A stretch of DNA of 64,000 nt, taken from positions 1-64,000 of the forward strand of contig JABAAC010000058.1 of assembly GCA_014238965.1 (NCBI GenBank), given 5' to 3'. The notes beneath the pieces were generated by a model, which saw nothing but the letters and a program-made list of their open reading frames with translations, was not told the DNA's origin and did no database searches. This DNA is from Phycisphaerales bacterium. Its GTDB lineage: Bacteria > Planctomycetota > Phycisphaerae > Phycisphaerales > SM1A02. How positions within the stretch are numbered: position 1 is the stretch's first letter; every line of letters starts with the position of its first letter. Below, in pieces: positions 42,811 to 47,158 of the stretch. The position numbers were made by a program, and so were the translations under genes.

Positions 42811-43821
42811 CTACCATTCCGAGCCCATATCACGACCCATCAGCGATTCGAAGGCCTCGTCAACCGCTAGGTCCTCATACAGCACCTCATAGATTGCCTG
42901 GGCGATGGGCATTTCCACATTCACTTCCGCAGCAACGGCTGTGATGGACTTCGCCGTGGACATGCCCTCTACCGTGGCGCCCGTGCGCTGCAGAAACGCC
43001 GATGATGATTCGCCACGCCCAAGCGCTTCGCCGAACGTTCGATTTCGACCAAACGGGCTGAAGCATGTCGTGGCAAGATCACCTACCCCCGCAATGCCAA
43101 AGAATGTCTCCGACTTGGCACCGTAGGCCACGCCAAGTCGCGTGATCTCTGCCAGTCCACGTGATAACACCGCTGACTTGGCGTTATCTCCCAGTTCAAG
43201 CCCATCACACATGCCCGCGGCAATGGCAATGACGTTTTTGGCTGCGCCGGCAAGTTCAACTCCAACGACATCGTCAGATGCATAGATACGAAGCCAAGGC
43301 GCGTGCAACGCCTGCTGCAAACGCTCGGCAACATCGCTTCGAGTTGCCGCGGCAACCATGACCGCTGGCTTACGATGTACAAGTTCCGAGGCGATCGTGG
43401 GCCCAGATACAACCGCAAGATCAACATCAGTCCCAATCACATCCGCCAAAATGTGCGTTGGCAATCGATACGTATCAACCTCGATGCCCTTTGCAGCAGA
43501 GGCGATCATGGTCCCCTTGGCAAGATGCGGTGCCAGTACGCCCCATGCCGATGCGGTGGCCTGTACGGGAATGGCATGGATAACAATCGTGGCACCATCG
43601 AGCGCTGCTGCAGGATCATCGTGCACGACAATGCCCTCTGGCAATATGAAGTGCTCCAGCCGATCGTGATTCGTCCGCGTGGAGCGAAGATCCTCGATCA
43701 TGGACCCAGCAGGTCCCCAAATACGTACGTCGGGCATGCCCGCAGCGGCAGCCGCATCGGCCATCACCAGACCCATCTGCCCACATCCAACAACTGTGAC
43801 TTGCTCGCGCATGATGTGCAT
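42811..43821 (-). CDS. gpsA: NAD(P)-dependent glycerol-3-phosphate dehydrogenase
   Basis: 336 residues. The dinucleotide motif VTVVGCGQMGLVMADAAA deviates from the usual GxGxWG by Met in place of Trp. Other motifs are clear: MIASAAKGIEV (substrate-binding Lys), VVSGPTIASELV, GVELAGAAKNVIAIAAGMCDGLELGDNAKSAVLSRGLAEI and FFGIAGVGDLATTCFSPFGRNRTFG. It reduces dihydroxyacetone phosphate to sn-glycerol 3-phosphate for phospholipid synthesis. GGAGG lies 15 bases before the first ATG; a second ATG nine bases inside is possible. Confidence 0.95.
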   Translation of the reverse strand: MHIMREQVTVVGCGQMGLVMADAAAAAGMPDVRIWGPAGSMIEDLRSTRTNHDRLEHFILPEGIVVHDDPAAALDGATIVIHAIPVQATASAWGVLAPHLAKGTMIASAAKGIEVDTYRLPTHILADVIGTDVDLAVVSGPTIASELVHRKPAVMVAAATRSDVAERLQQALHAPWLRIYASDDVVGVELAGAAKNVIAIAAGMCDGLELGDNAKSAVLSRGLAEITRLGVAYGAKSETFFGIAGVGDLATTCFSPFGRNRTFGEALGRGESSSAFLQRTGATVEGMSTAKSITAVAAEVNVEMPIAQAIYEVLYEDLAVDEAFESLMGRDMGSEW

Positions 43822-44020: not shown

Positions 44021-46072
44021 ATGTCTCATATGGATGCCGCCGCCACGGCCAGTTTGCACGATCACACCCAAGACGAACCGCTCTCGGCCGTTGGACTTGA
44101 ACGCCGCTTGCTGGTGGCATTGGCTGGAGGCGTGTTGCTTGGTGCCTCTTGGATTGGATCGCTACTGGGCGTCGATGAAGGGGTCAGCCAGTTCCCCGCC
44201 TTTTTGGGCGCGATCATTCTGGTCATTCCACTGCTCATGGGCGCTTGGCGAGAACTCGCCGTGGGCCGCCCAAGCGGCGATGCACTGGCAACGCTGGCCA
44301 TTCTGGCAGCGATGTCATCTGAAAACTATCTAGCGGCTGGGTTCTTGGCATTGTTCTTGTGGATGGCCAACCTCATCCTGAGCCGAACGGCCTGGGGTGC
44401 CCAACGAGCCATCCGAGACCTCGTGCGACTCACGCCAGACCTCGCTCGAAAAATTACTGCAGAGGGCAAAGAGGTGCAGGTTCCACTCGCTGACCTCACG
44501 CTCGGCGAGGTCGTTCGCGTGCTGCCAGGCGAGAATCTTCCTGTCGATGGCACTGTGCACTCGGGCCAATCAAGCATCAACCAAGCATCACTCACTGGTG
44601 AAGCTGTGCCAATCGAAGCACAAACCGGAACAGACGTCTACGCAGGCACGACCAACCTCACCGGCCGACTTGACGTGACCGTGACTGCGGTGGCTGGCGA
44701 AACCACCATTGGGAAGGTCGAACAGCTCATCCGTGAAGCTGAGTCCTCACGCACCTACCGACAGGAAGTCATCGAGCAACTTGCTGGGTACTACTTCTGG
44801 GTCGTCATCATGGTCGCATCACTCGTGTGGTTCTTTACCACTCGAAACGCTGATGAAGCGATTCGTGCAGAAGCCTCATTGCGTGCCATCACGGTACTCG
44901 TCGTCACCTGCCCTGGCGGCCTGCTGATTTCGCACCCAACCGCCATGGTCGCTGCATTCGCCGCAGCAGCCCGATTGGGCATCATGATCAAGCAGACACG
45001 CACGCTGGAAGCGGCCGCCGACATCGACACAGTCGTCATGGACAAAACCGGCACACTGACCACCGGCGTCTTTGAAGTATCACGCCTTGCACCAGGCGAC
45101 AACGTTGACGGCGCTGCACTGCTGCAAGCGGCGGCCGATGCAGAGCAGTCATCGAATCACCCCCTCGCTCGATCGATTCTAGATACCGCCGAGAAGGCGA
45201 AAATCGAACCCGCCCCAGTCGAAGGCTACGAAGAGATTCACGGCCGGGGTGTCAAGGCGGAAACCACCCATGGCACGACCTACGCTGGCCGTGCTGCGTG
45301 GTTGCTGGAACTGGAACCCTCTATCGCCGACGCCGTCGCTGCAGTGGAAGAACGCATTGCGGGCATGTCCGGTGTGCACGTCATGCGCAATGATGTCTAT
45401 CTTGGCGCTGTCGGGCTGGAAGACAAACTTCGTCACAACGCAGCGGAGGCAGTTGGCGAACTTCGCCGTTTGGGCTGTCGCCGACTAGCCATATTCACAG
45501 GCGACCGCATTGCCGTGGCCCGCCGGGTTGGCCAAGCTGTCGGTGTTGACATGATCGAAGCGGAATGTCTACCTGAAGAGAAGCACGAAGAACTCAAGCA
45601 TCTCATGCGCCAAGGCCATCGCACGCTTGTCGTTGGCGATGGCATTAACGACGGCCCGATTCTCGCCACGGCAGATGTGGGCGTCGCCATGGGCTTGTCT
45701 GGCTCCGATATTGCCACCAACTCCGCTGGCGTGGCATTGATGAACGACGATCTTCGGAACATCCCCTTCTTGCTTGCTCTGGCTCGCCGCGCACGGCGAG
45801 TCATTTCACAGAACATCGCCATGTCGCTGCTGCTGGCGGTGATTGGCTTGGCCCTGGCAGCCACTGGCACCCTGCTCAACTTGTGGCTCGCACCCTTCTA
45901 CTACGCCCTTGGCTACATCGTCGTTATCGCCAACTCCTTGCGATTGGTCAGGTTCGGTGAAGATCATGCCGAGGCCGAACAGAGCCGAGTGCAAGATGAG
46001 ATGGCCCGCGCCCAGCGGGAACGTTCCGGCGAAGCTCGCCGTCGGCGGATTGAGGGCCAAACAGCGGGCTGA
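44021..46072 (+). CDS. P1B-like cation-transporting P-type ATPase with CPG membrane motif
   Basis: 683 residues; GAGGAG lies about 13 bases before the ATG. A-domain LTGEAVP, phosphorylation site DKTGTLTTG (Asp341), N-domain SSNHPLARS (the HP signature specific to heavy-metal ATPases) and P-domain GDGINDGP are all intact, so it should be an active pump. The M4 motif reads VTCPGGLLISHPT (Cys297-Pro-Gly) where known heavy-metal pumps have CPC, CPH, SPC or TPC. There is no N-terminal HMA domain, only a His/Asp-rich start (HDHTQDE). The last helix LAPFYYALGYIVVIANSLRL lacks the Asp used by Zn/Cd pumps. The transported ion is therefore unknown. Confidence 0.88.
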   Translation: MSHMDAAATASLHDHTQDEPLSAVGLERRLLVALAGGVLLGASWIGSLLGVDEGVSQFPAFLGAIILVIPLLMGAWRELAVGRPSGDALATLAILAAMSSENYLAAGFLALFLWMANLILSRTAWGAQRAIRDLVRLTPDLARKITAEGKEVQVPLADLTLGEVVRVLPGENLPVDGTVHSGQSSINQASLTGEAVPIEAQTGTDVYAGTTNLTGRLDVTVTAVAGETTIGKVEQLIREAESSRTYRQEVIEQLAGYYFWVVIMVASLVWFFTTRNADEAIRAEASLRAITVLVVTCPGGLLISHPTAMVAAFAAAARLGIMIKQTRTLEAAADIDTVVMDKTGTLTTGVFEVSRLAPGDNVDGAALLQAAADAEQSSNHPLARSILDTAEKAKIEPAPVEGYEEIHGRGVKAETTHGTTYAGRAAWLLELEPSIADAVAAVEERIAGMSGVHVMRNDVYLGAVGLEDKLRHNAAEAVGELRRLGCRRLAIFTGDRIAVARRVGQAVGVDMIEAECLPEEKHEELKHLMRQGHRTLVVGDGINDGPILATADVGVAMGLSGSDIATNSAGVALMNDDLRNIPFLLALARRARRVISQNIAMSLLLAVIGLALAATGTLLNLWLAPFYYALGYIVVIANSLRLVRFGEDHAEAEQSRVQDEMARAQRERSGEARRRRIEGQTAG

Positions 46073-46099
46073 GGCCCGCCGCACGGTAGAATGGACACC

Positions 46100-47158
46100 A
46101 TGAGCACGATCAACGATCTGCTGGGTGCCGAGGCCAACGATCTCCTCGAGCACAAATGTTCGATCCCCGCGTCTTCGCTGCACCTGCCTGGTGGCGACTT
46201 CGTCGACCGCATGTTCAGCCAGTCCGACCGCAACCCACAGGTGTTGCGTTCGCTGCAACAGTTGTACGGTCATGGCCGGCTTGGTGGATCAGGCTACCTG
46301 TCCATCCTGCCTGTGGATCAAGGCATCGAACACTCAGCAGCGGCATCGTTCACCAAGAATCCTGTGTGCTTCGACCCCGAAGGCATACTGGAACTCGCAG
46401 TGGAAGGTGGCTGCAACGCAGTAGCAAGCACGTTCGGCGTGCTGGGTTTGATGGCCCGCCGCTGGGCTCACCGCATTCCATTCATCGTCAAACTGAATCA
46501 CAATGAGTTACTCACATCACCCAACTCATTCGATCAAGTGATGTTTGGCACGATCGACCAAGCGTGGAACATGGGCGCTGTGGCGGTGGGTGCAACGATT
46601 TACTTTGGCTCGCCTGAAAGTCGACGACAAATTGTGGAAGTTGCAGAAGCCTTTGCTTACGCACACGAGCGCGGCATGGCCACCATTCTCTGGTGCTACC
46701 TGCGAAACGACGACTTCAAGCATGGCGACGCTGATCACCATGCCTCTGCTGATCTCACCGGCCAGGCAAACCACTTGGGTGTGACGATTCAAGCTGACAT
46801 CATCAAACAAAAACTAGCTGAAACCAACCGTGGCTACGTCGCAATGAACGACGCGGGCAGCTTTGGCAAGTACGACAAAAGTATGTACGACGGCCAATGC
46901 ACGGACCACCCCATCGACCTATGTCGATGGCAAGTGCTCAACTGCTTCGCCGGCCGAATTGGTTTGATTAACTCCGGCGGAGCCTCTGGCGACAACGACC
47001 TCGCCCAAGCTGTCCGCACGGCGGTTGTGAATAAACGTGCTGGGGGCACTGGGCTGATCTCCGGACGAAAGGCCTTCCAGAAGCCCCTGAAAGACGGCGT
47101 CGCATTGCTCAATGCAATTCAAGACGTCTACCTCGACGACTCAGTAACGATCGCGTAA
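46100..47158 (+). CDS. fbaB: Class I fructose-bisphosphate aldolase (archaeal/FbaB type)
   Basis: 352 residues from the ATG at 46100; one at 46091 would add three residues. It aligns throughout with E. coli FbaB from memory: [83 protein letters not shown] (with the Schiff-base Lys), [10 protein letters not shown] and [16 protein letters not shown]. It cleaves fructose 1,6-bisphosphate without a metal ion. With pgk, gpsA and rpe it is one of four central carbon genes in the window. Confidence 0.97.

Follow-up and report, generated by a model that had tools for sequence, protein, structure and literature searches.

A P1B-type ATPase that is retained throughout one family of marine Phycisphaerales and lacks most of the canonical metal ligands

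P1B-type ATPases are defined by the Cys, His and Asp residues that hold their metal, and the locus described here raises the question of what a pump of this class carries once nearly all of these ligands are gone. The window, a stretch of 64,000 nucleotides, includes a gene for such a pump (Table 1) and the gene is part of a 2.6-Mb Phycisphaerales genome bin. In the NCBIfam search its score for TIGR01525 lies well above the cut-off of 346.25, the cut-off of TIGR01512 is exceeded as well, and no equivalog reaches its own cut-off. Together with the HP motif, DKTGT and eight membrane helices, the TIGR01525 match identifies the protein as a P1B pump. An earlier note made from the DNA alone held that the catalytic and HP motifs are intact, which is correct, as TGE, DKTGT, SSNHP (377-381), GRG at 408, TGD at 493 and GDGIND are all present. 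It also held that there is no HMA domain, and this agrees with Pfam, which matches only PF00122 and PF00702, that is the A-domain and the HAD domain. The His/Asp-rich start that the same note regarded as a feature is not conserved even within the genus (the pump of L003 starts with MSNPEAAATVHPALSG), so that a special role for these residues was rejected; the family is essentially devoid of a His tail, which is found in its CPS/His relatives.

Table 1. Coordinates of the pump gene, its motifs and putative ion-site positions, and the neighbouring genes in the window
Feature	Position	Strand	Basis or remark
gpsA, divergent neighbour upstream of pump	42811..43821	-	adjacency conserved across clade; marks orthology, not function
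P1B-type ATPase gene, CPG/Tyr-Tyr type	44021..46072	+	ATG start, 683 aa; TIGR01525 501.8 bits; PF00122 + PF00702
N-terminal tail, residues 1-26, no HMA, no conserved His/Cys tail	44021..44098	+	Pfam, tail counts
Ala105, position of exit-path Glu/Asp in P1B-2 and P1B-4	44333..44335	+	column counts; Glu role PMC8880997
Asn117 in M2; Glu instead in Gln628 subgroup	44369..44371	+	column counts
TGE motif, residues 192-194, A-domain	44594..44602	+	motif search
M4, residues 285-318, helix broken at 296-298	44873..44974	+	AlphaFold2 model, mean pLDDT 79
Cys297-Pro298-Gly299, ion-site motif position of P1B pumps	44909..44917	+	alignment
His305 in M4, family-specific (His or Tyr)	44933..44935	+	alignment column counts
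DKTGT phosphorylation motif, residues 341-345	45041..45055	+	motif search
HP motif, P1B nucleotide-binding domain, residues 380-381	45158..45163	+	motif search
GDGIND motif, residues 539-544	45635..45652	+	motif search
Tyr628 in M6, position of P1B-2 Asp and P1B-4 His	45902..45904	+	alignment
Tyr632 in M6	45914..45916	+	90/90 in family; Asp/Glu in 53/58 other-family relatives
DeoC/LacD-type aldolase, downstream of pump	46091..47158	+	in most family loci where flank allows

In the alignment M4 of the window pump reads VVTC297-P-G299-G-LLIS-H305-P and M6 reads APFYY628ALGY632IVVIANSLRL, in keeping with the Cys297-Pro-Gly-Gly motif and the Tyr in place of the Zn/Cd-pump Asp that had been noted before. 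Tyr628 is found where the P1B-2 motif DxG has its Asp and where sCoaT, a P1B-4 pump, has His657, and Tyr632 occupies the position of the T in HEGxT/DxGxT. A structure search with the model returned CopA, ZntA and sCoaT as the best matches, the highest TM scores being 0.72-0.75 against CopA (7r0g), and the model thus supports a P1B fold in which M4 is predicted to be interrupted at CPG.

These substitutions are a property of the whole family. The nearest relatives, with 85-86% identity, likewise have CPGG with Tyr628 and Tyr632, and in sister genomes this place is occupied by CPG and not by CPC. Gly299 is found in all 90 distinct family sequences with GGC, GGT, GGA and GGG all in use, and Tyr632 and Ala606, the latter at the aligned position of the P1B-2 Lys in M5, are equally invariant (90/90 each), as is Pro625 in the 57 family loci first examined. 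Residue 105 is Ala in 79/90 and otherwise Pro, Thr or Gln. Cys297 is kept in 83/90 and replaced by Ala in six sequences and by Thr in one. The usual ligands, namely the third residue of the M4 motif, His628, Asp/Glu632, the exit acid of M2 and the N-terminal His/Cys tail, are missing from every one of the 90 sequences. Residue 628 is either Tyr (44) or Gln (46), and two linked states account for 39 sequences each: Asn117-His305-Tyr628 and Glu117-Tyr305-Gln628, the latter regardless of residue 297. From the column counts, the two linked residue sets look like a maintained alternative site and not like decay. Nor do these counts show any acidic residue to be conserved within the membrane core in the Tyr628 type.

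The family consists of marine Phycisphaerales and the gene is present in all of its 57 high-quality genomes; at the level of the order a match is found in 217 of 220 high-quality genomes, a count which mixes the window clade with a CPC-type sister group. A search for all P-type ATPases often recovers only two or three per family genome. The window genome has two, the second being a CPC copper-type pump, and in addition one CDF exporter. The window-type pump is the sole P-type ATPase found in the reduced genomes G496 and G630, which are about 90% complete, so that a second one could have escaped detection. Pairwise dN/dS is 0.02-0.15 with dS often saturated, and the gene is thus under purifying selection and a housekeeping gene in the family.

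The position of the pump was determined in a tree of 66 sequences from which the motif columns had been removed; CtpC was absent and mycobacterial and rhodococcal plasmid matches beside ArsR genes were left out. The Phycisphaerales clade that includes the window pump has support of 100/100. Its sister group is formed by CPC/His pumps from other Planctomycetota (99/97), and HN-type pumps with CPC are the next to join (99/92). P1B-2 and P1B-4 are found together on the opposite side of the tree (96/93). Forcing the clade into P1B-2 or into P1B-4 worsens the likelihood by about 146 log units with AU p = 0.0002 in each case; the two constraints give nearly the same value and are therefore not independent evidence. 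Membership of either subgroup is rejected by these tests and by the missing motifs.

Within the clade M4 covers a spectrum of CPS, CPT, CPA, CPV, CPG, APG, TPG and VPA, and CPC is absent from all 53 rows. The other Phycisphaerales families have CPS, CPT, CPA, CPV or CPG together with His628 and Asp/Glu632, and their orthologues carry a His-rich N-terminal tail that usually bears CC. APG or TPG occur in some members of the window's own family, and in the sister group the third M4 residue has changed several times to give CPS, CPT, CPL and CPG. Judged by sequence, CPG is one end of a spectrum that also includes CPC and even VPA, and not a defining motif; nor is it unique, since it also occurs in other lineages of the clade, in the sister group and in an Enterococcus pump. 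Tails were scored as having at least four His or at least two Cys within the last 45 amino acids before residue 27. By this measure 50 of 53 clade relatives with His628 have at least four His and 46 of 53 at least two Cys, in contrast to none of the 90 family sequences on either count; five other clade sequences without His628 likewise have neither a His nor a Cys tail. According to the tree His628 was lost three separate times in the clade, in the window's family, in the VPA genus (L039-L042) and in L225, all of them without a His tail, and loss of the tail by itself is seen in three clade sequences. Tests on independent pairs gave three pairs in one direction, which is too few to reach significance. 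In sCoaT the two residues on either side of the M4 Pro have the corresponding His between them (PMC8880997), and the joint loss of both therefore makes structural sense. The acid of the exit path in M2 is E120 in sCoaT and E202 in ZntA (PMC8880997). In all seven genomes of the VPA genus (L039-L042, L244-L246) the pump has no M4 Cys, residue 297 being Val, carries Gln628 and is without a His tail. Three pumps of other Planctomycetota (L152, L159, L165) show CPGP in M4 and a Gln (VQNVGE) in M6, which the aligned residues indicate to be another separate loss of the third M4 Cys together with the M6 His.

The neighbourhood of the gene is informative on descent. As had been claimed earlier, no metal regulator is adjacent to the pump, its neighbours being the divergent gpsA and the aldolase. 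The gpsA gene lies beside the pump in 54/57 family loci, 28/36 loci of tailed relatives and 4/4 VPA loci, but in none of the 48 sister loci. Since it is shared by tailed and tail-less loci, the tailed and tail-less pumps are orthologues at one locus. For the same reason the adjacency is older than the change in the site, gpsA is uninformative on a new cargo, and it was set aside as a functional clue. No hint of the substrate was found among the neighbouring genes. An MgtE-like magnesium transporter, recognised by eye, adjoins the pump of His-tailed relatives at six loci including L014 (7132-8565). The sister CPC/His pumps belong to another gene cluster, which also encodes SPFH proteins together with an ABC transporter. 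In L122 (34-3923, 5974-8530), and similarly in L130, L131 and L046, the pump of this conserved cluster is accompanied by SPFH/Band_7 proteins, a permease and an ABC ATP-binding protein; two of the SPFH/Band_7 proteins in clusters of this type were confirmed by Pfam and a third was judged by eye. SPFH-type neighbours occur in 30/48 sister loci, genes judged by eye to be ZnuC/ZnuB-like are additionally present in L131, and the cluster is possibly a membrane metal platform.

The results describe a universal pump under selection in which the catalytic motifs are kept and the canonical ligands are gone, with the exception of a mostly conserved Cys297. As the metal-holding residues have been lost and the pump is nevertheless strongly conserved, its cargo probably does not belong to the zinc- or copper-like metals. 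The earlier suggestion of a different ion or coordination is supported by the ligands that are absent family-wide from a universal pump, and more strongly than could be seen from the one sequence, but needs correction in so far as it treated CPG as the distinguishing motif. The explanation preferred here, to which about an even chance is given, is a working housekeeping pump that arose from His-tailed P1B6-like exporters by the dismantling and rebuilding of the metal site and that no longer carries a soft transition metal. Its ancestor would have been a His-tailed, P1B6-like exporter of transition metals. Its site would have been taken apart and rebuilt around Gly299 and Tyr632 with, for the most part, either Asn117-His305-Tyr628 or Glu117-Tyr305-Gln628, and the present pump would still cycle via a phosphorylated Asp341 and move its cargo across the inner membrane. 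This cargo would not be a soft transition metal in need of Cys, His or Asp ligands; the likeliest candidate is a cation of harder character, which backbone carbonyls, tyrosine hydroxyls, Gln or Asn and, in most members, Cys297 would coordinate. A point against it is the core of the Tyr628 type, whose lack of a conserved acidic residue would be hard to square with a strongly bound divalent cation. Somewhat short of an even chance is given to the wider proposal that these pumps form a separate subgroup of P1-type ATPases, with a Gly299/Tyr632/His-or-Tyr305/Tyr-or-Gln628 site and a non-thiophilic cargo, and that a similar dismantling took place in two other lineages of the order.

It appears rather unlikely that the protein is still an exporter of a transition metal (Zn2+, Mn2+, Fe2+ or Cu+) whose site, reduced to the Cys297 thiolate and to backbone and tyrosine or glutamine ligands, has a lower affinity suited to metal-poor sea water. 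Its descent from CPC/CPS pumps with His, its synteny with the His-tailed relatives and its assignment to TIGR01525 would fit such a role, and the retention of Cys297 may point to a one-thiolate metal site. However, Cys297 is missing from seven family members and the whole VPA genus and is therefore dispensable, and the His/Cys tail, the His and Asp of M6 and the exit acid have been lost together and not thinned. A P-type ATPase without an ion of its own, which acts in regulation or, like KdpB with KdpA, powers a second membrane protein as its ATPase subunit, would account for a catalytic engine that is kept above a Tyr628-type core without conserved acid; this is improbable, as the locus holds no conserved partner gene but only the divergent gpsA, HPr and the aldolase. 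Only a slight chance is given to a flippase for a lipid or other organic molecule. The lost ionic ligands, the aromatic M6 (APFYYALGY) and the adjoining gene for glycerol-3-phosphate dehydrogenase, a lipid-precursor enzyme, could be read in this way, but that adjacency already exists in the metal-pump-like His-tailed relatives and does not track the change, and P1B scaffolds are not known to act as lipid flippases. An error in the Gly codon or a decaying relic gene can practically be dismissed: although several family members are metagenome bins and a few stop-interrupted matches are listed, the conservation of Gly299 rules out a sequencing or assembly error, and its use of all four codons, the low dN/dS and the presence in every family genome speak against a relic.

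The orthologues at this one conserved locus form a series from CPS with His and a His tail to almost no canonical ligand at all, and can be regarded as a natural experiment on a change of cargo in a P-type ATPase. The pump can so little be dispensed with that it remains as the last P-type ATPase of small genomes, and the series makes a directly testable claim on which ligands the P1B scaffold needs. By automatic annotation, a gene that is universal in a marine group is called a 'heavy metal translocating P-type ATPase', which is probably a misnomer.

None of the subgroups P1B-1 to P1B-4 accommodates the window pump. P1B-3 is marked by CPH in M4, in place of which the window pump has CPG, and the CPH pump L022 groups with the outgroup. 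A literature search returned nothing relevant on CPG-type pumps, Phycisphaerales P-type ATPases or SPFH-linked pumps. The Cu+ pumps of P1B-1 have CPC in M4, YN in M5 and MxxSS in M6 (PMC4932525), and the window pump, with CPG, SLLLAVIGLAL in M5 and APFYYALGYIVVIANS in M6, falls outside the CopA/SilP group. P1B-2 (Zn/Cd/Pb) is characterised by CPC in M4, Lys in M5 and DxG in M6 (PMC4932525); the window pump resembles its members E. coli ZntA and S. aureus CadA in overall fold, catalytic domains and the TIGR01512 match, but is without CPC, the M5 Lys (Ala606), the M6 Asp (Tyr628) and the exit Glu. With the P1B-4 pumps (Co/Zn; SPC in M4, HEGxT in M6; PMC8880997) such as sCoaT and CtpD it has in common the lack of an HMA domain, and its M6 position 628 corresponds to the site of sCoaT His657, but it has YALGY instead of HEGxT and neither SPC nor the exit-path acid. 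An Enterococcus plasmid heavy-metal P-type ATPase (L174, WP_002293759.1) does share CPG in M4 but has HEGS in M6, as in P1B-4, and is placed on a long branch near P1B-2/P1B-4, so that its CPG most likely arose separately; its gene (702-2606) adjoins a small HMA protein. Pumps with CPC in TM4 and HN in TM6, such as Mycobacterium tuberculosis CtpC, are called P1B6-like (PMC9374683). The window pump has neither motif, and its sister group has CPC and LH(N). Like the P1B6-like/CtpC type it is without an N-terminal HMA domain and it is found on the same side of the tree as the HN-type pumps, but it differs in having CPG for CPC, Tyr or Gln for the M6 His, Tyr for Ser/Asp at 632 and no His tail. On this evidence, and with CtpC itself outside the tree, the window pump can best be regarded as a putative derived branch on the P1B6-like side of the family.
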